From Rhodospirillales bacterium (GTDB lineage: Bacteria > Pseudomonadota > Gammaproteobacteria > Steroidobacterales > JAHEKG01): DNA of 38,073 bases. Location of the stretch: NCBI GenBank assembly GCA_024638475.1, contig JAHEKG010000006.1, positions 1 through 38,073 of the forward strand, given 5' to 3'. The position numbers were made by a program, and so were the translations under genes. Positions 7,280 to 28,921 of this stretch are shown here, one piece after another. The notes under the pieces were generated by a model. That model had not been told where the DNA came from and did not search any database. It saw nothing but the letters and a program-made list of their open reading frames with translations. Every line of letters starts with the position of its first letter. The first letter of the stretch is position 1.

Positions 7280-8419
7280 TTACGGCGTCGAGTCAAAAAG
7301 CTCGCGCCCGATGAGCATTCGGCGAATTTCACTGGTCCCGGCGCCGATTTCATAAAGCTTAGCGTCGCGTAACAGGCGGCCGGTGGGATAATCGTTGATA
7401 TAGCCGTTACCGCCCAAGGCCTGTATCGCCTCCAACGCCATCCAAGTGGCTTTCTCGGAGGCGAACAAGATGCAGGCCGCCGCGTCGAAACGAGTAGTGC
7501 GACCCCGATCGCAGGCGTTAGCAACCGCATAAACGTAGGAACGTGCCGCATTCATGTTCGTATATAGGTCGGCAATTTTCGCCTGCATGAGTTGGAAGGT
7601 GCCGATGGGTTGGCCAAACTGCTTGCGCTCGTGGACATAGGGCAGAACCGTATCCATGCATGCGCGCATGATACCCAGGGAGCCGCCGGCCAGCACGACG
7701 CGCTCGTAGTCGAGGCCGCTCATGAGGATCTTGGCGCCCTCCCCCAGCGTGCCGAGCACCTGCTGCTTTGGCACGATACAATCCTTGAAAACCAACTCGC
7801 AGGTATCGGAGCCGCGCATACCTAGCTTGTCCAGTTTCTGGGCCGTCGAAAAACCGCGCGTACCTTTTTCTACAATGAACGCCGTGATACCCGCATCCGC
7901 CTTCGCGTAAACTACCAGCACGTCGGCATCGGGGCCGTTGGTAATCCACATCTTGTTGCCGTTGAGGAGGAACCCCTCATTGCATTCGCGGGCGCTGGTA
8001 CGCATGCCCAAAACGTCGGAACCCGCACCCGGTTCGCTCATCGCCAAGGCGCCTACGTGTTCGCCACTGATCAACGCCGGTAACCAACGCCGTTTTTGCG
8101 CTTCGCTGCCCCAACGGCGAAGTTGGTTGACGCAAAGGTTGGAATGAGCCCCATAGGACAGGCCCACGGCCGCCGAAGCGCGGCTGATCTCCTCCATAGC
8201 CACCACGTGGGCCAAGTAGCCGAGTCCGGCGCCTCCGTACTCGGCTTCAACGGTGATGCCGAGCAGACCCAGCTGACCGAGCTGAGGCCATAGGTCCCGC
8301 GGAAAGACATTACTACGGTCGATTTCCTCCGCCCGCGGAGCGATGGCGGCGGTTGCGAAATCCGCAACCGCGTCACGCATGAGGTCGAGCTCTTCACCCA
8401 AACCGAAATCGAATTCCAC
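7280..8419 (-). CDS. liuA: Isovaleryl-CoA dehydrogenase
   Basis: This is an FAD-dependent acyl-CoA dehydrogenase that oxidises isovaleryl-CoA to 3-methylcrotonyl-CoA, the step before the carboxylase encoded next door. The 379 residues show the family fold: [39 protein letters not shown] (flavin contact), [21 protein letters not shown] and [28 protein letters not shown] holds Glu239 at the position of the catalytic glutamate found in isovaleryl-CoA dehydrogenases, rather than the C-terminal position used by other acyl-CoA dehydrogenases. The C-terminal [33 protein letters not shown] motif region (about residues 335-370) is also typical. The start is a GTG with a GGGGTAGCGA stretch upstream and an in-frame stop close by, so no longer start is possible. 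Confidence 0.93.
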
Positions 8420-8495
8420 TCGCTACCCCAGGATCTGCGTCCAACCAGCGCCGAGTTCCATTGTCCGCCCGGCAAGCGGGAGATCCATACCCTAG

Positions 8496-9314
8496 TCAGG
8501 GTAGATGGGTCATGGCGTCCAAAAAATAGGCAAACAGGGCGGCCTGGGAGGTGACTTGCAGCTTGGCGTACAGATTTTTGCGATGCACGGTCACCGTCGC
8601 CGGTGAAATCTGCAATTCCCGAGCGACGGACTTCGCCGAGTGTCCCTTGAGCAGTAGCACGGCCACCTCACGTTCACGGGCCGTCAGCAGCTCACCGCCA
8701 AATTCTTCGAAGCAATCCAACATGCGCTGGTGCAGCTCATCCGCTTGCACGCGTGGATCGAGGCAGCGGCCGATTCGGCCCATGGCCGCATGAATGACCG
8801 GACCGACGCCCTTCAGACGAGCCAATTCGCGGGGACTAAAACGACTGGACCGACGGCCGATCACTAGCGCTAGCGTCAACCCGTCGGCCACCGGCGTCAC
8901 CGCATCGGCCTCATCGACGAGATGTGTGCGCAAACGATACTCGCGATAGTAGGCAGATACGTTGAACCGGTCCGGAGAGCGATCGCGAAACCGAAACATC
9001 CCAGGCCGCTTCGCGTTCAGAGCCAGCTCATAGAGTGGGTCGAGCAGATAGGGGCCGGCCAAGTAGCGATCGATGTAATGGGCCGCAACCCGCTGCGTCA
9101 TCGTGTGATGAATCACCTCGGGGCGGGCTTGGCTGCGGTATGCCACCAGGCAAGTACCATCATCGTGGACAACGGTTCCCACGGCCCTGGCCAGCGCCTT
9201 ACAAAGATCAGCGCGGTCCTCCGCCGCAACCAATTCGGCGACCGCGCTTTGCCAGGCTGGCGCGGTGAACTTCAAGTTAGTCGTCGGTCTTGCTGTCCGG
9301 CACGGCAAACACAC
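8496..9314 (-). CDS. LuxR-type transcriptional regulator
   Basis: The C-terminus is a GerE/LuxR helix-turn-helix: LLTAREREVAVLLLKGHSAK then SVARELQISPATVTVHRKN and LYAKLQVTSQAALFAYFL (about residues 205-265). The N-terminal 190 residues are a sensor region without recognisable autoinducer or receiver motifs, so the signal is unknown. The frame begins at a GTG (9314) that overlaps the upstream dehydratase gene by 38 bp. TTG codons at 9308 and 9274 are alternatives, and the last would start just after the upstream stop. It stands between the AbfD-like gene and the leucine genes and could control either. A 6-bp inverted repeat (TACCCT...AGGGTA, 8488-8503) lies across its stop, just before the dehydrogenase gene. 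Confidence 0.8.
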   Translation of the reverse strand: MCLPCRTARPTTNLKFTAPAWQSAVAELVAAEDRADLCKALARAVGTVVHDDGTCLVAYRSQARPEVIHHTMTQRVAAHYIDRYLAGPYLLDPLYELALNAKRPGMFRFRDRSPDRFNVSAYYREYRLRTHLVDEADAVTPVADGLTLALVIGRRSSRFSPRELARLKGVGPVIHAAMGRIGRCLDPRVQADELHQRMLDCFEEFGGELLTAREREVAVLLLKGHSAKSVARELQISPATVTVHRKNLYAKLQVTSQAALFAYFLDAMTHLP

Positions 9315-19793: not shown

Positions 19794-20327
19794 TCACCAA
19801 GCCCTAACGGGCCCGGTGTCGATATGCACGAAGTTCGATTTGGGGTAATAGCCCACTCCGCCGGACCGCAATGCCAAAGCGGCCCCGCGTAAACGCTCCG
19901 TTGGCACGCTCGTTAGGCGCACGTCCACCGCGCGCCCCACCATATGGAAGCTGCGTTCCGAAACGCCCGCCGTATTGCGACGCAGCATGGTGTTGGTTTT
20001 GCTCGAACGGAAAGCCGATATCACCTCGAAGGCGCCGCGTTCGCCGGCCCGGGCGAACAATAACGCCAGCAAGTCTAATAACGATTTCTCTACCGGGTGT
20101 TCCTCACCGGTGCGAAAATCTCGCAATAGGCGGTTGATGTTGGCCAGGGCAGCCGGCAAATATTCACCGTGCTCGAAGTAGACAACGTCGAGGCGTTCTC
20201 CGGTATGAGCGTGCTGCAACCTGAGACGGCGGTGAGCAGGAGCGGCCGCTAGGGCGAGCGTAGGCGCAGCCATTAGGCCGCAACCGGCAGCCAGGATTCG
20301 GCGTCGAGTCAATTCCATAGGGCGCAT
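19794..20327 (-). CDS. MepK/YcbK-like DUF882 murein endopeptidase, Tat-exported
   Basis: This belongs to the peptidase M15-like DUF882 family; E. coli MepK cleaves 3-3 cross-links in peptidoglycan in the periplasm. A twin-arginine signal MELTRRRILAAGCGLMAAPT begins the protein. Candidate zinc ligands are in SFHMVGRAVDVRL (His and Asp) and NFVHID (His), and FRSSKTNTMLRR is the usual conserved stretch before them. The frame is open to 20378, but the ATG at 20327 sits directly before the Tat motif and follows a GGGAAA. It lies 66 bp downstream of the AgmX-like gene in the same direction. It may belong to the motor operon as a cell-wall enzyme, or may be separately transcribed. Confidence 0.87.
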   Translation of the reverse strand: MRPMELTRRRILAAGCGLMAAPTLALAAAPAHRRLRLQHAHTGERLDVVYFEHGEYLPAALANINRLLRDFRTGEEHPVEKSLLDLLALLFARAGERGAFEVISAFRSSKTNTMLRRNTAGVSERSFHMVGRAVDVRLTSVPTERLRGAALALRSGGVGYYPKSNFVHIDTGPVRAW

Positions 20328-20393
20328 CGAGTAATTTCCCGAACCAACAGTATCGCCAAGGTAACCCATCGGTCGCAACCGATCCAGTCCGGA

Positions 20394-21362
20394 CTATGCG
20401 GGGAAGAAATCGATCGGCTTCGTCGTCGTTATGGCCTCGACATCCTTGGCATCGAAGCGGAACAACAATATTCGCTGCACGAGCTTGCGCTCAAGATCCG
20501 GGTCACCGAGTTCGCTCGAGACGACTTCACAGAATGTTACGGCGCCCGCTGGAGAAATCGTCAGGCGCAGCACCAACTTACCTTCCAGCGAGGGATCTTT
20601 ACGCAGGGCGCGGTTATACAGCGCGTAGATCGCCCCCTTGTTGCGATCGAACACCATTTCTATTTCTTCGCGGCTGCGCGACCCCTTATTGGACGAACCC
20701 GAGCGCCGTGCGGCGCCGCCACCAGCGCCGAAATCCGCGGCGTTGCTCGCGACTCGCGTCGTCGAACGCCCAGCCAAGCCGCTGCCGCCGGTATTACGGC
20801 TGAGCGCGGCAGTATTGATGCCGCCGCTGGCCCGGCCAGCCTTCGACGTAATCAAAGACCGCTCTGCTCGAGGCACGTCGCCCTCGACACCGCCGAGGAG
20901 CTGTTGGTCTTGATTGAGCTTGTCCAGCGTCTCGTTATCACGCAGATCGGCCAATTCGTCGGCAAACGGCAGGAGGCCTGCCACCTTTGCGTTATCTCTC
21001 GCCTGCTCCACCTGATCTATTACCGGTTCCGGTTCGGGCTCGGGTTCTTTTTGGACAACCTTCTCCGGTTCCGGATCGTCCTCCTTCACCACCTTCTCCG
21101 GCTCTTCTTTCACAACCACCGGCGGGGGCGGCGGGGGCGCCTTGCGCTCCAGTATCAGTTTCGCGAACCGCTTCGGAATTTCTTTGACGTCATTCGGGTC
21201 GGGTTGAGGCGTCGGCAAGATACTGATCAGTAACGCCAATACCAATACCGAGCCAACCGTGCGTAGCAGAATCTGCCGGAACTGCTGTTCCTGCTGGGAG
21301 GACATGCTCCAGGGCAGTTCAAAAACACGAAAATACGTCGTCGTTGTCGTTGCGGCGGCCAT
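20394..21362 (-). CDS. TonB-like energy transducer with AgmX/PglI C-terminal domain (GltG/GltJ-like)
   Basis: This links an inner-membrane proton motor to periplasmic or outer-membrane partners. A short cytoplasmic N-terminus precedes one membrane span (TVGSVLVLALLISILPTP, about residues 38-55). A long Pro/Glu/Lys-rich periplasmic linker follows (KAPPPPPPVVVKEEPEK, then repeated EPEP runs), then a Gly/Ser/Arg-rich region. The C-terminal domain is REEIEMVFDRNKGAIYALYN, KDPSLEGKLVLRLTISPAG and FCEVVSSELGDPDLERKLVQ, which is the AgmX/PglI signature of Myxococcus adventurous-gliding proteins. ATG at 21362 follows AAGGA. The first span and linker are TonB-like, but the C-terminal domain is not that of TonB. 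It is the last gene of the tightly spaced operon. Confidence 0.88.
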   Translation of the reverse strand: MAAATTTTTYFRVFELPWSMSSQQEQQFRQILLRTVGSVLVLALLISILPTPQPDPNDVKEIPKRFAKLILERKAPPPPPPVVVKEEPEKVVKEDDPEPEKVVQKEPEPEPEPVIDQVEQARDNAKVAGLLPFADELADLRDNETLDKLNQDQQLLGGVEGDVPRAERSLITSKAGRASGGINTAALSRNTGGSGLAGRSTTRVASNAADFGAGGGAARRSGSSNKGSRSREEIEMVFDRNKGAIYALYNRALRKDPSLEGKLVLRLTISPAGAVTFCEVVSSELGDPDLERKLVQRILLFRFDAKDVEAITTTKPIDFFPA

Positions 21363-21371
21363 ACCCAATCC

Positions 21372-21902
21372 TTAGGTGTTACCGGCGGCTTGAGCCATGA
21401 CGGTGTCTGACGTTTTCTGCAGCACAGCCAGGGATAACTGACCGTAGTCGGCGTCCGTACAAGTTGCCATGACTTTCTTTAGCAACTTATAAGGAATCTC
21501 ACGATCACCCATAATCGTTACCTCGCGATTTAGGATGTCTTCCTTTGCCTCTTGGCGGAGGACCCGATCGGTTTGCTTCTGCAAAGCCGCACGTAGTGCG
21601 GGAATGACCACACTTTCGCTGGCCAGCACCTCGCTGACACTCGCGATGATTCGGCCCTGCACCAATAGGCTGTCCTTGGTGACCATGACCACAACCGTTT
21701 CACGGGACCGCTCTTCCGCCACGGACTCCGGGAGCTTTAGATCCTTGGCGTTAGGTAGAACCTCTACCTCGCTAGAACTTACCAGTAGAAAAAACACGAG
21801 GATCGTGAAAATGTCCATCAGCGACACCAGGTTAAGCGACAGGCCCTTCTTGTGCCGCTTATGGTGGCGCTCCATGCGCGCCGCTCGTCCACCTGAATAC
21901 AT
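21372..21902 (-). CDS. ExbD/TolR-type motor subunit with the conserved membrane aspartate
   Basis: This is a single-span proton-channel subunit. The span near residues 26-45 reads SLNLVSLMDIFTILVFFLLV, with Asp30 at the position of the proton-carrying aspartate of ExbD/TolR/MotB. The periplasmic part (EVLPNAKDLKLPESVAEE, and a C-terminal YKLLKKVMATCTDADYGQL) has the ExbD fold pattern. ATG at 21902 follows AGGAG. It is separated by 9 bp from the AgmX-like gene and by 9 bp from the second ExbD gene. With one ExbB and two ExbDs the arrangement equals AglR-AglQ-AglS. Confidence 0.9.
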   Translation of the reverse strand: MYSGGRAARMERHHKRHKKGLSLNLVSLMDIFTILVFFLLVSSSEVEVLPNAKDLKLPESVAEERSRETVVVMVTKDSLLVQGRIIASVSEVLASESVVIPALRAALQKQTDRVLRQEAKEDILNREVTIMGDREIPYKLLKKVMATCTDADYGQLSLAVLQKTSDTVMAQAAGNT

Positions 21903-21911
21903 CGTCAGCTC

Positions 21912-22406
21912 CTAATTCAAGACCGGCGCATCGCCGATGGATATCTCGGGGAAGAGCTCAGCCTTTAGTACTTGCTCTTCGTCGTCAATTTTCTCCACCA
22001 CACGCACCGTATCCATCACCTGTACAAGCACCTCGTAGGCGATGTCCTGCTCGAGCAACAGCGTCGCATCCGTCTTAGTGGGGAATTTTTCCTTCACCGA
22101 AACGAGATACTCGCTGAGCCTCTTGAGGTCGTATTCGTCGCCGTCGCTTGCGATGTTCGTCAACATGCCCTGGTTGCGATCACCAACTTCAATCGTGGCA
22201 TCGCGTACCGTAATCTCAAGCATGAATTCCGGCTCAGTTGGCTCCTGCTCCTCAACCTGGGAAGTCGGCAGGTTGAGTTCCAGAATTGCCAACCGCGAGA
22301 ACACCGCGGTAATCAGCAAGAACGGCACGAGAATCACCATCAGATTCATGAACGCCGTAATGTTCAATTCGGCGGTTTCGTGCTGCTTACGACGTCGACG
22401 GCTCAT
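21912..22406 (-). CDS. Second ExbD/TolR-type subunit, asparagine in place of the membrane aspartate
   Basis: The plan is the same as its neighbour: a basic N-terminus (MSRRRRKQHETAEL), one span (NITAFMNLMVILVPFLLITA), and a periplasmic domain ending in YEVLVQVMDTVRVVE. Where ExbD proteins carry the essential Asp (family pattern TPLID), this one has Asn21 (AFMNLMVIL). It therefore cannot relay protons by the canonical residue and may be a structural partner of the Asp-bearing subunit. The frame is open to 22466, but ATG at 22406 is right: AGGAG lies at the proper distance and overlaps the ExbB stop, and the longer start would overlap ExbB by 50 bp. Confidence 0.88.
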   Translation of the reverse strand: MSRRRRKQHETAELNITAFMNLMVILVPFLLITAVFSRLAILELNLPTSQVEEQEPTEPEFMLEITVRDATIEVGDRNQGMLTNIASDGDEYDLKRLSEYLVSVKEKFPTKTDATLLLEQDIAYEVLVQVMDTVRVVEKIDDEEQVLKAELFPEISIGDAPVLN

Positions 22407-22416
22407 GGGCTCGCTC

Positions 22417-23076
22417 CTAGGCGGATGCCGCCGGCTTAGTCGGTGCCGAACGCTCCGTAATGGCATTTAGGAATTTCACGGAGGCCATTTCCAGGCTGTC
22501 GACAATCTCAGTGGTCTTAGTTTGCAGGACCGTATGGATCAACAGCAGGGGAATCGCCACCATCAGGCCAAACGCAGTGGTGTTCATCGCCACCGAGATA
22601 CTGGCTGACAGTAGGTCCGCTTTCTCCGCCGGGTTCGCATTAGAGACCGCCGTAAACGCGCGTATCAACCCGATGATGGTGCCGAGTAGTCCAAGCAGCG
22701 TGGCGATGTTCGCAAAGGTCGCGAGATAGTGAGTCCGCTTTTCCAACCGCGGCATCACTTCCATCAGGCTTTCTTCCATGGCCTTTTCCACGTCTTCACG
22801 GCGACGAGCCGAGCGAACGCGATTCAGGCCATAGGTCATGATGGTGGCAACTGCCGCTTTGGATTTACCGGCAACTTCGGCGGCGGCTGAAAAATTACCG
22901 GACCGTAGATAAGGTGTGACCTTCTTCCACAAGACCTTATTCTTAGTCGTGGTAACCGTGAGAAACAGGTAGCGCTCCACAGCGATGGCGAGCCCCAGTG
23001 CAAAAACCAGCACGATGGGGTACATGAAAAGACCGCCCTCCTGAAAGAAGCTCACAATGGTGCTATAGACTTCCAT
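22417..23076 (-). CDS. MotA/TolQ/ExbB-type proton channel
   Basis: This inner-membrane channel subunit drives the ExbD and TonB-like partners with the proton gradient. Three spans are visible in 219 residues: MYPIVLVFALGLAIAVERYL, then ATFANIATLLGLLGTIIGLI, then SVAMNTTAFGLMVAIPLLL. They carry the polar threonines typical of spans 2 and 3 (LLGTIIG, NTTAFG). The cytoplasmic loop between spans 1 and 2 is normal (RREDVEKAMEESLMEVMPRLEKR). ATG at 23076 follows GAGGAG. It lies 5 bp after the preceding gene. By neighbourhood it corresponds to AglR of the Myxococcus gliding motor rather than to TolQ, because no pal/tolB is present. Confidence 0.92.
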   Translation of the reverse strand: MEVYSTIVSFFQEGGLFMYPIVLVFALGLAIAVERYLFLTVTTTKNKVLWKKVTPYLRSGNFSAAAEVAGKSKAAVATIMTYGLNRVRSARRREDVEKAMEESLMEVMPRLEKRTHYLATFANIATLLGLLGTIIGLIRAFTAVSNANPAEKADLLSASISVAMNTTAFGLMVAIPLLLIHTVLQTKTTEIVDSLEMASVKFLNAITERSAPTKPAASA

Positions 23077-23081
23077 GGGTA

Positions 23082-23543
23082 CTACTCCTCTTGGCTCTCG
23101 CCGTACAGTGTGTCGTAATAGTCGAGTTGCCGGCGGAAGACCTCAGGGTCCACCGGAGCCAGCACCTCATCTAACAAAGTATTTACGGGCCTTCCTACTA
23201 AGTCCCCCAAATCCGAGTTTTTCCAGGGGATGATGTATAGGACTTTAGGCAATTCCTGGTTCCCGGTAATTGACGTGGTTCCCAGATCGAGCTGATCCAT
23301 TGCCCGGTATCCGCCGGCAGTCTTGCTCCCCCCCGCAATCGGGGGAGCCGGCGCCGTATCCCGAGCGTCGTCCGCGGGCGCCTGGGCTGCGGCGGGAGAG
23401 GGCGCCGCTGGGGCCGGATCAACGCGGCCCAGGCTCGTATTCACGGCGGGTTCCAGTGCATCGACCTCCGCTATGGGATCTTGCCCGAGGCTCGGCAGCG
23501 GGATCCCGCCGAGCAACGCCATCATCAGCCAAACGCGTCTCAT
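23082..23543 (-). CDS. Small exported protein of the motor operon, unknown function
   Basis: I do not recognise a named family in this 153-residue protein. It has a signal peptide (MRRVWLMMALLGGIPLPSLGQ), an Ala/Pro-rich low-complexity linker at about residues 35-75, and a compact C-terminal segment. That segment (MDQLDLGTTSITGNQELPK, VLYIIPWKNSDLGDLVGRP, VNTLLDEVLAPVDPEVF) looks conserved in character and ends in an acidic tail. It should sit in the periplasm. Its ATG overlaps the stop of the TPR lipoprotein gene (ATGA at 23540-23543) and has AGGAGG upstream, so it is coupled to that gene and lies 5 bp before ExbB. The position suggests a role linking motor and TPR proteins. Confidence 0.75.
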   Translation of the reverse strand: MRRVWLMMALLGGIPLPSLGQDPIAEVDALEPAVNTSLGRVDPAPAAPSPAAAQAPADDARDTAPAPPIAGGSKTAGGYRAMDQLDLGTTSITGNQELPKVLYIIPWKNSDLGDLVGRPVNTLLDEVLAPVDPEVFRRQLDYYDTLYGESQEE

Positions 23544-24229
23544 GGCGCCTCCTCCTGAGCGATACCTTCCTGGGCGATCCGTGTCGTCGGTTCCGTGATA
23601 CCCAATCGACGCCTAAGATCGATGATCCACTTCTTCACGCGGTCATCCTCACCGGCAAGTGTTTGGTAGCGCTCGTAGTGTGGCAGCGCCTCCTCGGGCC
23701 GTTTCAAATACAGGTCCAACAACACGCCCAGGTTGTAATGCGCGAGGGCATAGTCGGGTGCGATCGCCAAAGCATCGGCGTAGGCCTGCTCTGCCGCACC
23801 GAAGTCCCCTTGCCGGCGCAGCAAGATACCCAACTGATTATGCGCTTCGGCGTGAACCGGATTTAGCGCCAGCGCTTTCTGCAAAGCGTCTCTGGCCGCC
23901 GTATCCCGGCCCGAGTCCATGTAAATAATCGCGAGATTGACCCGTGGCCCGGCAAAATCCGGATGCTCCAGAATCAGCTGTTCCAACTCGAGTTCGGCCT
24001 CGGTCACATCGCCGCTGCGCATCGCCGCCAGCGCTCGGTCGAATCCGGCCTGGGCGTCGCCGGGAACCTCGACGATCGGCGCTACAGCAGCAGCCGGCAA
24101 ACCGGGATCGGCGGCAGCGGCGTCGCTGGCGGGTACCGTCTGAGTGGGCGGCACACTGGCGCAACCCGCCAGCACCGCCACAAGCAAGGGCATCAACCAC
24201 CGTGCGGACTTATTGAATCGCAACAACAA
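23540..24229 (-). CDS. TPR-repeat lipoprotein of the motor operon (GltE-like by position)
   Basis: The signal peptide ends in a canonical lipobox, LLVAVLAGC, and lipidation would be on that Cys. The residue at +2 is Ala, so outer-membrane sorting is expected. After an Ala/Pro linker come about four TPR units: FAGPRVNLAIIYMDSGRDTA, NPVHAEAHNQLGILLRRQGD and APDYALAHYNLGVLLDLYLKR are clear. The start is one of three consecutive TTG codons, placed by AGGAGAGAGG upstream. A later ATG would leave no basic n-region. The start overlaps the end of the 942-residue gene by 20 bp. TPR lipoproteins act as assembly scaffolds; GltE (AglT) of Myxococcus is the nearest functional comparison, as an inference. 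Confidence 0.85.
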   Translation of the reverse strand: MLLRFNKSARWLMPLLVAVLAGCASVPPTQTVPASDAAAADPGLPAAAVAPIVEVPGDAQAGFDRALAAMRSGDVTEAELELEQLILEHPDFAGPRVNLAIIYMDSGRDTAARDALQKALALNPVHAEAHNQLGILLRRQGDFGAAEQAYADALAIAPDYALAHYNLGVLLDLYLKRPEEALPHYERYQTLAGEDDRVKKWIIDLRRRLGITEPTTRIAQEGIAQEEAP

Positions 24230-27038
24230 GCCTCTCTCCTAACTCTTGCTTGGCATAGCGTACCGGCATCAACTCGGCGAGCTGTCTCAAGCTCGCCTCG
24301 ATCCATTCGTCGTAGATGGCTTCTTTGGTTCGCTGGGCGTTGACTTCATGTAGTTCGATTGCTTGCTCCTCGAAGGGGTAAGCCTGTTCTTCGAGGAGAA
24401 TCTCGTATTGCTCCAATTCCGCCGCTGTCAGTCCCGCCGGGCGTTCGGACTCAAACAAATCTTTGCTGAATCGATGATAGAGATCGGCAATCTGAAAGGT
24501 CGCGGCCGTCGTCACCTCGGCTACCTCATAGTCTGCCGCGCGTCCGTATGCGGCCAACGCTTCTTCCATTCGCTGCTTCTTGATCTTCAGGCTTGCCTTG
24601 AGCGGAATGACCAGTCGCGTCCCGAGGAAGGCATCCCGCGCAGGTTCGGCCAGCACCAGGGCAGCCTTGGCGGCTAGGTAACGACTCCGATCGGTGCGCT
24701 CTGCGCCGGCCGCGCCGTCGGCGCGTACGATTTCGTTCAACCATTCCATCCGCCCCGCATAGTCGCCGTTCGCCTCAGCCATCTCTACGAGCTTCTGACG
24801 GGCTTCCATTGCCGGACCGAGTGGGCTCGGGTAACGCTCGATGTAGCTGGCGTAAGTGGCGCTGGCAGCGCCGGCATTACTTGCTTGCTCGTACAACTCC
24901 GCGGCTCGCCACAAAGCTTCCTGCTGCTCCTCCGGCGATGACGTCGGCGCCGAAGCGATGCGTTCGAATTCACCCGCTGCGCGTTGGCTCTGGCCCGCCT
25001 CGAGGTAGGCCACGGCCAGGTTTGCCGTTACCTCGTCAACTAATTCGTGGTCCGGGTGATTCGCCCTGAAGCCCTCTAATGCATTCGTCGCGCGAGCCCA
25101 ATCCTTCAGCTGGACGAGAGCAATGGCCGCGTCGTAGTCTGCGGTGACCCTGATAGCCGATGCCGGCGCGGCCCCAGCGACCCTGCCAAAGTGGCCCACC
25201 GCCGTTTCTAGATCGCCAGCCGCACGGGCGAGCTCGCCTTGCTTATAAATCGCCGAAGCGATGCGTTCTACAACAGCAGAATACTGATCATCCGTGGGTG
25301 CAATGTATGCCTGCAGCCGCAGATAGGCCGACTCTGCCTCCGAATAGTCGGCGAGATCGAAATTAGAGTGCGCAATAACGGTCCAAGCGGTGCGCGCATG
25401 TTTGGCTTCCACCGGCGGCTGCAGTGCAACGACCTGGGTGGCAACCTCCTTTGCCTCGACGAATTCGCCCAGCTCAAACAGCGCTTCTGAAGAGGCCGTC
25501 AAGACCGCGCCCGCCTGCTCGTGTTCGGGATAGGTTCGCGCAAATCGAAGACCACTGTCGATGCCCTGCCGATGCCAGGTGCTGCGCTCCGGCTCCGCCA
25601 GCTGCTGTTCGTGTTTCCGATACGCTAATAACGCCGCATAACCTGCCTCACCGCCCTTATCGTGAGGCGGATAAGCATATGCGGTACGTTCATACTCCAG
25701 CGCTGCACCGCCAGGGTCGCCGCTTTCGAATAACACTTCGGCAAGCAGAAAGTTGGTTTGCGGCGCCTCGCTGTCGTTCGGGAAAGATTCCAAATACCCC
25801 CGGTACCACTGCGCAGCTCGGGCGTAGTCGGAAGGCTTCTTGGAACTCTGGGCCTGCGAATGGTAATACTTGGCGAGGTCGGTAAAGTTGGTTTTGAGGT
25901 GCGCCAACACTTCGGGTTGGGTTGCCTGGTCGTGGCGCTCCCAGTATGGGCTAGTGAGCGCATAGCGTTCGACAAAGCTCTGCTTCCCTTCCAAGACCAA
26001 GGTTGCAAATTGTCCTTGTTTGTAGGCTTCGATAACTTCGACTTGAAGCAACGGCGCCTTCACATGGTAGGGATCTAGATCTACGAACGCCTGGTAAGCC
26101 TGGGCACCGTCCTGATAGCGTTCCTTTTCCAAGTAAAGATCGCCCAGGTTGGTATAGATGATGTACGTATAGGGTGGATTGCCGCGGCCACTGAGATATT
26201 CCGTGACCGAATCCGCGCCGTCGATATAAGAAAAACTGATGCTCAAGACGCGAAAGGTATCTTCGACCATCTCGCGCTCCGCGCGAGACATGTTGGCGAT
26301 CACTCGGTCCGTATCGGCCACGGAGGCGGCGTCGCTGCCGCCGTAGGGTATGAGTTTTCGATCCAGTAGCGAAAAGAACGAATCGAGACTCTCTTCATGC
26401 AACATCTGCTTGAACGACGACCATCCATGCTTGTACAGCGCTTGTTCGTAGAAGTTCGAGGCCGGCCCCATTTGGAGCACTTTGTTGTATGCCTCCTCCG
26501 CCTCCGCGTAGCGCTTGTTGACGAACAGTGCTTCACCGCGCCTGAACTGCGCCTCATCCATATGCACGGTAGCCGGGTATTCCGCGACCAGCCGATCCAG
26601 AATGTCTAATGCGCGTTGGTTATCACCCGTGACCTCATAGGCACGCGCCAACTGATAGAGAACTAGGTCGTTCTTGGCGTAATCAGGAAACGCCGCAAGC
26701 AATTGCTCGTACAAACCCACGGCACTCCCGAACGCGCTCGCTTCCAAACTTTCCAAATTGGTTACCAGCTGCTCCGCCTCACCGACTTCCAACTGTAAAT
26801 CAGCCAACCGGCGCATCGCTTCCGCGCGCAACAGCGGATCGCCCGAGGCAAGGTCGAGAAACAAGCGATAGCTTTCCATCGCCTTCGTATCGCTTTGCGG
26901 AATCTGCGAGAACGTGTCGACCTCGACCGTACGGTCCTCGAGGCTCTTGATCGTATCGGCTTCGTCGATCGAATGCTTACCCCCGCCGCCGAACGGCCAG
27001 ATGGCGGCAACCGCAACTAATCCGATCAGGGGACTCAC
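24210..27038 (-). CDS. Large TPR-repeat envelope protein of the motor operon (GltD-like by architecture)
   Basis: The 942 residues consist mostly of degenerate TPR and Sel1-like helical pairs. Examples are ALDILDRLVAEYPATVHMDE, AQFRRGEALFVNKRYAEAEEAY, GDLYLEKERYQDGAQAYQAF, NFLLAEVLFESGDPGGAALEYE and ANLAVAYLEAGQSQRAAGEFE. The N-terminus (PLIGLVAVAAIWPFGGGG) is a short hydrophobic segment that could be a signal or an anchor. The start is GTG, overlapping the stop of the preceding gene (27035-27038), with GGGGTAAG upstream. Such long TPR solenoids are protein-binding scaffolds. In Myxococcus the comparable large periplasmic TPR protein is GltD (AgnA). Direct sequence orthology is not something I can show. 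Confidence 0.82.
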   Translation of the reverse strand: MSPLIGLVAVAAIWPFGGGGKHSIDEADTIKSLEDRTVEVDTFSQIPQSDTKAMESYRLFLDLASGDPLLRAEAMRRLADLQLEVGEAEQLVTNLESLEASAFGSAVGLYEQLLAAFPDYAKNDLVLYQLARAYEVTGDNQRALDILDRLVAEYPATVHMDEAQFRRGEALFVNKRYAEAEEAYNKVLQMGPASNFYEQALYKHGWSSFKQMLHEESLDSFFSLLDRKLIPYGGSDAASVADTDRVIANMSRAEREMVEDTFRVLSISFSYIDGADSVTEYLSGRGNPPYTYIIYTNLGDLYLEKERYQDGAQAYQAFVDLDPYHVKAPLLQVEVIEAYKQGQFATLVLEGKQSFVERYALTSPYWERHDQATQPEVLAHLKTNFTDLAKYYHSQAQSSKKPSDYARAAQWYRGYLESFPNDSEAPQTNFLLAEVLFESGDPGGAALEYERTAYAYPPHDKGGEAGYAALLAYRKHEQQLAEPERSTWHRQGIDSGLRFARTYPEHEQAGAVLTASSEALFELGEFVEAKEVATQVVALQPPVEAKHARTAWTVIAHSNFDLADYSEAESAYLRLQAYIAPTDDQYSAVVERIASAIYKQGELARAAGDLETAVGHFGRVAGAAPASAIRVTADYDAAIALVQLKDWARATNALEGFRANHPDHELVDEVTANLAVAYLEAGQSQRAAGEFERIASAPTSSPEEQQEALWRAAELYEQASNAGAASATYASYIERYPSPLGPAMEARQKLVEMAEANGDYAGRMEWLNEIVRADGAAGAERTDRSRYLAAKAALVLAEPARDAFLGTRLVIPLKASLKIKKQRMEEALAAYGRAADYEVAEVTTAATFQIADLYHRFSKDLFESERPAGLTAAELEQYEILLEEQAYPFEEQAIELHEVNAQRTKEAIYDEWIEASLRQLAELMPVRYAKQELGERLVVAIQ

Positions 27039-28921
27039 GGACTTACCCCGTTCAGGCCGTCGAAATCCGTCACCGCACTAGCCGATGCGCGATCGTAAAT
27101 CGAGGCCAACGCGAATCTGGCTTGGATCATGTAGGTGTCCAGGCGGCGCTTCTGAGCGGTTAGCTCGTCAATCGCGACGTCTTCCAGGAAAGCGCGTTGC
27201 CGGCCCAGAGCATTATCGACGTTACTCGCTACCAACCCGACGCGGGGATTCAACGCCGCAACCCGAGCACTAAGTTCCGCAAACCGCTCCGGCCACTGCG
27301 CCGTTTTCTGCGATACCCTGTGGTAACGCCGCTGCCCCGTCTTGACGTCTTTGTCTAACTGGCGCAACGTTTTCGTCTGACGCCACAGCCGAGCTTTGTA
27401 ATCTCGGCTCAAGTCCCAGTACATTAGGCCCTTGAGAAACTCTTGCTTAGCCGCGATTTCCGCGACCTCGGGGTCGTCTCGGAACATTGCGAGTTTGGAT
27501 TCCATCCCCACCAACAGTTCCCAGTTCGTCTGTTCGTCTAGGGTGCCCAACGCCACGGCATCCTCGTCACGCTCAATGGCCTTCAAAGAGGTCTTCAACT
27601 CCAATAACCGGCTGCCCAGTTCATCCGGATCTGCGCTCGCCAGGCTGGCTTCGATGCGGGGCAAACGTTGCCGGTATGCAACTTCGCGAGTCGCCAGCAT
27701 GTCGTCGAAAGTATCAAGGCTCGCCACCCACTGATCCAAATTGGCTCGCATGAACATCAAATCGCGATAGTTTTTCAAGCCTTCTTGAAACCGGTGACTC
27801 GCCATCAATTCATATAAGTAACGCGTTTCCGGCGCATCGGGTAGTTCATCCAATTGCCAAAACCAACCCATACTCTTGCTCGAATCTTGCGCAAGCACCG
27901 CGGCCAATAATTCGCCATTCCTGATACTGGCGATCGATTGATCAAGACGGGTTATTTCTTCGTGAAAGGCCTCGATCGCGTCCAGGTAGTAATCGGCCGC
28001 CTGCTTGTTTGCGTCAAGCTTGGCGAGCGCGTACGGCACGGCCAATAACGACTCTTGCACGGCGGGATCGAGCAGATGGCGACGCCGCAATTCCATCCAC
28101 GGCACCAGCGCACTACGATAGTGCTCTTGCGCGCTATCCGACCAACCGACACCCAGCAGAGCCTTGGTCGAGAATGGCCCGTCAAGCCTGACCCGCTGTA
28201 ACGCCGGCCGCGCGAGTTCCGGGCGTTCCGCTTGCAGCCAGGCGTAACCTAGCGCGACGTTGGCCTTGTCCCTAAGGCCTGCCATCTCTTCCGTCCGCGG
28301 ATTCAAGCTGCCAACCTCGTCGAGCAGCGCCGTGCCTTCAGCAGTACGATTGAGCCTCACCAAAGCAACGCCCAAGTTATATCGCGAGTAGCCCGACCAT
28401 TCCTTTGGCCCTTCGAAACTCTCTAATTGCAACCGCGCTTCGTCGAAACGATCCTGTTCCATCAATACTTGAGCACGCAGCATGTGCCGCTCGGTCTCGA
28501 GCGGTCCAATGAGCTCGCCCTCAATACGATCTAACGCTGATTCAGCCTCCGCTAGGTAGCCGCGTTGGTACCAGACCTTCGCCATGAAAAACCAGGCGCG
28601 GTCACGAAACTCCGGCGATACCGCATCCTCGAGTAGGCGCTCGAAAATCTGCCCCGCCAACTTGTGTTGACCGTAGGAGAGATACAGGCCACCCAATAAT
28701 AGCTCGGCTTCCTCCGCGTGGTTGCTAACGCGATCGCGCTGTTTTGCCGTCAGCAGGTGGGTCAGGGCCGTAAAGTAGTCGTCCTGATAAAAATAGTACA
28801 GGACCTCCCCATAGTGGAGGTCCTGTACGGTAATCGCGTCGCGCCCGGCGTCTGCGCCAACGGCACTAGAACACAGGACAACCAGCAACAGGCCGCAGTT
28901 TAGGCGTAACCAGCGCCTCAC
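27035..28921 (-). CDS. TPR-repeat exported protein of the motor operon (628 aa)
   Basis: The signal peptide is RLNCGLLLVVLCSSAVGADA. TPR-like pairs follow: EVLYYFYQDDYFTALTHLLT, AEELLLGGLYLSYGQ-type units near residue 70, AWFFMAKVWYQRGYLAEAES and SRYNLGVALVRLNRTAEGTA. A helical, coiled-coil-like C-terminal half covers about residues 370-600 and is rich in Arg, Leu and Glu. It should be periplasmic or peripheral to the outer membrane. The start is GTG, with GGGAG upstream, six bases after the stop of the coiled-coil gene. A perfect 13-bp inverted repeat lies about 95-125 nt into the coding region. Role inferred from the operon: scaffold of the same envelope machine. Confidence 0.8.
   Translation of the reverse strand: MRRWLRLNCGLLLVVLCSSAVGADAGRDAITVQDLHYGEVLYYFYQDDYFTALTHLLTAKQRDRVSNHAEEAELLLGGLYLSYGQHKLAGQIFERLLEDAVSPEFRDRAWFFMAKVWYQRGYLAEAESALDRIEGELIGPLETERHMLRAQVLMEQDRFDEARLQLESFEGPKEWSGYSRYNLGVALVRLNRTAEGTALLDEVGSLNPRTEEMAGLRDKANVALGYAWLQAERPELARPALQRVRLDGPFSTKALLGVGWSDSAQEHYRSALVPWMELRRRHLLDPAVQESLLAVPYALAKLDANKQAADYYLDAIEAFHEEITRLDQSIASIRNGELLAAVLAQDSSKSMGWFWQLDELPDAPETRYLYELMASHRFQEGLKNYRDLMFMRANLDQWVASLDTFDDMLATREVAYRQRLPRIEASLASADPDELGSRLLELKTSLKAIERDEDAVALGTLDEQTNWELLVGMESKLAMFRDDPEVAEIAAKQEFLKGLMYWDLSRDYKARLWRQTKTLRQLDKDVKTGQRRYHRVSQKTAQWPERFAELSARVAALNPRVGLVASNVDNALGRQRAFLEDVAIDELTAQKRRLDTYMIQARFALASIYDRASASAVTDFDGLNGVSP
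28796..28828 (-). repeat. Perfect 13-bp hairpin inside the start of the TPR gene
   Basis: GTACAGGACCTCC (28796-28808) and GGAGGTCCTGTAC (28816-28828) pair without mismatch around the 7-nt loop CCATAGT. On the mRNA it begins about 94 nt after the GTG start and encodes VQDLHYGEVLY. It contains GGAGG on one arm, a Shine-Dalgarno-like sequence that would be hidden in the stem. Confidence 0.75.

Follow-up and report, generated by a model that had tools for sequence, protein, structure and literature searches.

A tandem ExbD pair with aspartate in one subunit and asparagine in the other at the proton-carrier position of an AglR-like operon

Within the window, by which we mean the whole 38,073-nucleotide stretch of DNA analysed here, two adjacent minus-strand genes encode ExbD/TolR-family proteins of which only one carries the transmembrane proton-carrier aspartate. 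This residue is present as Asp30 in the product of 21372-21902 and is replaced by Asn21 in the product of 21912-22406, the two falling in a single alignment column, the one occupied in ExbD, TolR and MotB by the proton-carrier Asp. The earlier note on this DNA had claimed this difference, and the claim is borne out by the ORF coordinates, the codons and the shared column; its order of "first Asp, second Asn" holds on the plus strand and is reversed in transcription, which runs from the ring gene through the Asn gene (21912-22406) to the Asp gene (21372-21902). The pattern is far beyond chance and is a real feature that is broader than the window alone. We consider this claim about the sequences solid, and its best reading would be a heterodimer that acts as a one-site motor.

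The operon and its two ExbD subunits

The two genes lie in a region (20394-28921, minus strand) that forms one operon for three TPR proteins, a small secreted protein, a ring subunit, the two ExbD/TolR proteins and a TonB-like transducer. The ring subunit (22417-23076, 219 aa) is an AglR-like member of the MotA/TolQ/ExbB family (PF01618, 106.3 bits). It is followed by the Asn subunit (164 aa; PF02472, 55.4 bits), with Asn21 encoded by AAT at 22344-22346, and by the Asp subunit (176 aa; PF02472, 58.5 bits), with Asp30 encoded by GAC at 21813-21815; Asp is found here in 171/171 partners across the operon family. Both scores exceed the curated Pfam cut-off for PF02472 (25.4 bits), and the Asn subunit is a member by profile, yet lacks the residue that has been called essential. 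The transducer (20394-21362) is GltG-like, with an AgmX/PglI C-terminal domain (NF033768, 63.1 bits against a cut-off of 40), and does not reach the cut-off of the GltG equivalog NF033760 (40.4 bits vs 650). On the other side of the ring gene are the small secreted protein (23082-23543, 153 aa; conserved in 39/39 and 6/6 operons), a GltE-like TPR lipoprotein (23540-24229; NF033758, E 2.3e-13, under the equivalog cut-off; 39/39 and 6/6 operons), a large TPR protein that is GltD-like by position (24210-27038; TPR profiles; 38/39 and 6/6 operons), and a TPR protein with weak TPR matches that is a possible GltC counterpart by position only (27035-28921), all on the minus strand.

With one aglR-like gene, two ExbD genes, and gltG-, gltE- and gltD-like genes, of which the last two are weak by profile and assigned from position and TPRs, the operon has the AglRQS-Glt gene set and matches an AglRQS/Glt-like "core complex". 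The Myxococcus counterpart is compared here by its description in the work of Luciano et al., who treat the gammaproteobacterial aglRQS-gltDEGC core complex as a functional unit whose function is unknown, with an extra gene absent from Myxococcales, and who argue that on its own it does not power gliding (PMC3169522). The window operon also has such a gene, as the small secreted protein fits this description. Like the AglRQS motor and Glt complex of Myxococcus xanthus, the window operon places two ExbD genes after a single ring gene and also encodes TPR proteins and a GltG-like TonB protein that ends in the AgmX/PglI domain. In M. xanthus, Asp is the residue described for AglQ as well as for AglS, whereas the window subunit in the AglQ gene position has Asn, and the AglRQS/Glt literature cited here makes no mention of an Asn paralogue.

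The two ExbDs are unlike outside the membrane as well. Modelled alone with AlphaFold from a 47-sequence alignment, each has one membrane helix and a periplasmic domain (pLDDT 88.5 for the Asn subunit, with its helix at 16-44, and 84.0 for the Asp subunit). In Foldseek searches, the periplasmic domain of the Asp subunit finds the solved domains of ExbD and TolR (8pek, E 3.9e-4), whereas the Asn subunit has no significant match (the best relevant one being ExbD 8pek, E 0.013) and carries a conserved C-terminal LFPxISxGDAP motif. A search of the PDB gave distant ExbB, TolQ and ExbD structures and none of this motor.

Conservation of the pair and the Asp/Asp clade

We searched mainly with the ring protein, so that there is no bias toward either ExbD residue, and counted operons by distinct ring sequence. 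Among 187 distinct complete operons in Gammaproteobacteria, 172 are Asn/Asp (171 scored automatically and one, L189, read by hand), 14 are Asp/Asp, one is Ser/Asp, and no other combination occurs. The Asn is thus essentially invariant in this paralogue, the point that the earlier note had proposed to check. The family has clear limits: across a sample of 399 genomes from the phylum, its members score at least about 280 bits and all other ring proteins at most about 120, and in this sample the members are confined to the window's class, where the operon is found in 60/274 sampled genomes. Every complete operon has one ring gene per two ExbD genes, and where the neighbourhood is complete, no Asn ExbD was found to be without an Asp partner. 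Outside the two Asp/Asn families described here, Asp occupies the site in 70/70 other ExbD/TolR proteins sampled across the class. Ordinary tandem exbD1-exbD2 operons likewise have two ExbD genes, but unlike the window operon, the four pairs in that sample (L292, L293, L294 and L298) are all Asp/Asp.

The codon itself bears on whether the Asn could reflect local decay or neutral change of a redundant copy. Across 171 operons, it is AAC in 108 and AAT in 63; the third base thus varies freely with A retained in the first position, although a single A-to-G transition would give Asp. Conservation of the Asn equals that of the surrounding helix (TAFMNLMVILVPFLL) and exceeds that of nearly the entire periplasmic domain. 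Relatives with Asp in both subunits, which the earlier note had named as the case for local decay, do exist, although as a single clade of 14; elsewhere the Asn is strongly maintained, being fixed in 172 operons that span dozens of families; its codon has undergone synonymous change, and the neighboring helix residues are equally conserved. This conservation across operons contradicts local decay, which we consider extremely improbable. A sequencing error in the window is ruled out by the presence of the same Asn in relatives.

In the larger trees, the 14 Asp/Asp operons cluster as a single group, and their partner genes are the same in kind as those of the Asn/Asp operons; where there is enough sequence, the transducer gene occurs in 96/96 operons of the Asn/Asp type and in 13/13 of the Asp/Asp type. 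In this clade, both transmembrane helices differ from the Asn/Asp form, with a Pro-x-x-Asp motif in both ExbDs, and ring residue Thr166, which adjoins the pore residue Thr167, is changed to Cys or Asn. The ExbD site thus varies in concert with the partner helix and the pore. The pore residues Thr133 and Thr167 of the ring (22417-23076) are themselves invariant in the family. In TM3, a Pro found in 7/7 outgroup rows (equivalent to ExbB Pro141 and MotA Pro173) is replaced in the AglR-like family by Thr126 (170/170 Asn/Asp and 11/14 Asp/Asp operons). This replacement is a candidate compensation for the Asn subunit, though it cannot be specific to Asn since most Asp/Asp operons share it.

The direction of change can be read in two ways. 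In the AglR tree rooted on other ring proteins, the Asp/Asp clade is nested within the Asn/Asp operons, which would mean a return to Asp, and in the concatenated tree it sits beside particular Asn/Asp operons. In the other history, which is compatible with a heterodimer mechanism, Asp/Asp is ancestral and normal, with a single origin of the asymmetric form, which would be no more than tolerated. Consistent with this are an AU test that does not reject all Asn/Asp operons as one clade (p 0.435), the canonical form of the Pro-x-x-Asp motif in both Asp/Asp subunits, and the Asp described for both M. xanthus proteins. The two tree placements and the recurrence of the asymmetry in a second family weigh against it, and we regard it as possible, if doubtful. 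Because one clade of the family runs on Asp/Asp, the asymmetry is not required for the function of the operon.

Several smaller observations concern membership of the family. The sole operon with Ser in place of the Asn is L157, with the motif FMSLMIVLVPVLL. Operons in records titled Rhodospirillaceae, Nitrospira and Polarisedimenticolaceae (L037, L085 and L088, respectively) group with the gammaproteobacterial ones, and the title of L088 (Polarisedimenticolaceae) looks wrong, as a search centered on its genome gave the window's own phylum. Searches of plasmid and viral collections gave no close relative. The window genome has a second, diverged motor operon that is also Asn/Asp (G000:C270 around 7547-9175; L003 and L006), with three proteins 38-61% identical to those in the window and a GltG-like protein after the cassette.

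A second family and the cytoplasmic acid

An Asp/Asn pair also occurs in a second operon family (ExbB-ExbD-ExbD-TonB) from Alpha- and Gammaproteobacteria, in which 37/39 pairs have Asp in the first ExbD and Asn in the second, the opposite of the gene order in the window's family. Searches with the ring protein of this family gave 17/17 Asp/Asn pairs in one sample and 20/22 in another that extended to further families of the phylum (loci L295, L296, L297, L300, L332-L344, L347, L357, L361-L366, L368-L374 and L376-L385, with the Asn in the second ExbD of L297 read by hand). The two exceptions, L367 and L375, are Asp/Asp, and single-ExbD operons with similar ring proteins have Asp at the site. 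The TonB is confirmed by Pfam in L295 and assigned by annotation in the named representatives, while the downstream proteins of three other operons had no Pfam match. The named representatives are on plasmids of Phaeobacter inhibens (pP92_a) and Leisingera, and we read the Asp and Asn directly in the P. inhibens pair and in that of Leisingera sp. S132; the P. inhibens operon comes after a TonB-dependent receptor and an iron ABC transporter. These ExbDs are annotated merely as "biopolymer transporter ExbD". Since the family occurs in P. inhibens and other cultured Roseobacteraceae, it is directly testable.

The second family resembles the window operon in its Asp/Asn pair and in the acid split described below, but differs from it in the reversed gene order, the ordinary TonB partner and the transmembrane motif. 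In the ExbD tree, the two subunits of the window's family group together (96/95), apart from the Asn group of the second family (97/96). This grouping and the opposite gene order favor two origins of the Asn, while a single origin, with one Asn clade, is not rejected by the AU test (p 0.42).

Both families also show a reciprocal distribution of an acidic residue on the cytoplasmic side of the site. In the window, Glu13 of the Asn subunit (22368-22370, minus strand) lies 8 residues before Asn21, in the region of E. coli ExbD Glu14. An acid at -8/-7 from the site is found in 168/171 Asn subunits vs 4/171 Asp subunits of the window's family, and in 17/17 and 18/19 Asn subunits (35/36) vs 0/17 and 1/19 Asp subunits (1/36) of the second. 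Among other ExbD/TolR proteins, 52/70 have an acid at -8 or -7, the usual place being eight residues ahead of the Asp. These counts share ancestry and are not independent events, their weight lying in the recurrence in two families and the persistence over high divergence. The E. coli Ton structure shows bonds from ExbD Met15 and Glu14 to ExbB Asn196 and Arg200, with the Glu14 region hydrogen-bonded to ExbB (PMC12215075); the acid at -8/-7 appears to lie in this region by position, although it is not proven to be the same residue. As judged from sequence, the two acids found in the usual homodimer are divided between the subunits in both families, each subunit retaining one and having lost the other. 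The earlier note's term "silent partner" is therefore too simple for the Asn subunit, which keeps its own conserved acid and its C-terminal motif. With the ExbB-ExbD, TolQ-TolR and MotA-MotB 5:2 motors, the window proteins share Pfam families, pore threonines and single-TM shaft subunits with a polar site at the same place; those motors have a homodimer with two Asp, whereas in the window two different subunits divide the Asp and the cytoplasmic acid.

A possible one-site motor and its alternatives

An obligate heterodimer would produce such a reciprocal split, and together with the recurrence of the pair in a second family, the split suggests a heterodimer with divided roles. The earlier note's idea of a heterodimer with one proton carrier is in part borne out by these patterns. 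We infer that the operon probably encodes a 5:1:1 motor in which a pentameric AglR-like ring (22417-23076) surrounds an obligate heterodimer of the two ExbDs (21912-22406 and 21372-21902) as its shaft. The Asp subunit would be the only proton carrier in the pore, and the Asn subunit would sit in the same pore, permanently neutral as though always protonated, and would supply the acid at the cytoplasmic mouth that the Asp subunit has lost. A full turn would then take at most five protons in five 72-degree steps, as against ten protons in 36-degree steps, and the output would be force carried across the envelope by the TonB-like protein (20394-21362) and the TPR proteins. That two ExbB/ExbD lineages independently split the shaft in this way, each into an obligate heterodimer of a sole proton carrier and a protonation mimic that keeps the cytoplasmic anchor, with one proton site and at most five protons per turn, is a broader proposal to which we would give an even chance.

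Reviews place the two Asp in different environments, with models of 36 degrees per proton and ten protons per turn (PMC12905483, PMC9389320, PMC12215075); a 2026 review regards the Asp as absolutely required and presents a model of protonation states being traded between the two Asp (PMC12905483). Current models of MotAB, ExbBD and TolQR all rely on such a swap between identical Asp residues. The D22N change in MotB imitates protonation (PMC9389320), and in M. xanthus the AglQ substitution D28N eliminates both proton conductance and motility (PMC3858216). As AglQ has the gene position of the Asn subunit, an Asp/Asn pair is evidently not tolerated there without other changes, and the gammaproteobacterial motor must have compensations for a substitution that stops the Myxococcus one.

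The pairs might instead be separate homodimers in separate rings, one being an active Asp/Asp motor and the other an Asn/Asn complex that is inactive and regulates it or only anchors the transducer. The sequence by itself is compatible with this, the periplasmic domains of the two ExbDs differ, and homo- versus heterodimers are stated to be undecided for AglQ and AglS (PMC9389320). We nevertheless find it unlikely, given the single ring gene per pair, the strict pairing in every complete operon, and the acid split in two families: a decoy need not retain the cytoplasmic acid while the active subunit loses the same one. A still less probable reading, to which we assign only a slight chance, is that the site works by other chemistry, with the Asn either deamidated to Asp after translation or coordinating another ion such as sodium. 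The Ser in the one exception is also neutral and polar, so a polar side chain may matter; deamidation, however, would not explain selection against an encoded Asp, and it is expected to be slow for an Asn followed by Leu, Ile or Val within a membrane helix, which counts against that version.

Should such one-site motors be confirmed, alternation between two Asp would not be a requirement of 5:2 motors. A natural one-Asp motor would separate the roles of the two sites and would break the ten-fold symmetry, making the steps addressable. Glu and Asp have been lost reciprocally, which also points to the cytoplasmic acid having a second role. The Asn/Asp operons would serve as a built-in one-site mutant for comparison with Asp/Asp relatives of the same family, a motor with one arm by nature that could reveal if both are necessary.

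Adjoining the transducer gene is a likely peptidoglycan L,D-endopeptidase (19794-20378) that is MepK-like (NF053624, 181.8 bits, just below the cut-off of 185), and it may be meaningful that an enzyme that cuts the wall is encoded next to a motor that spans the envelope.
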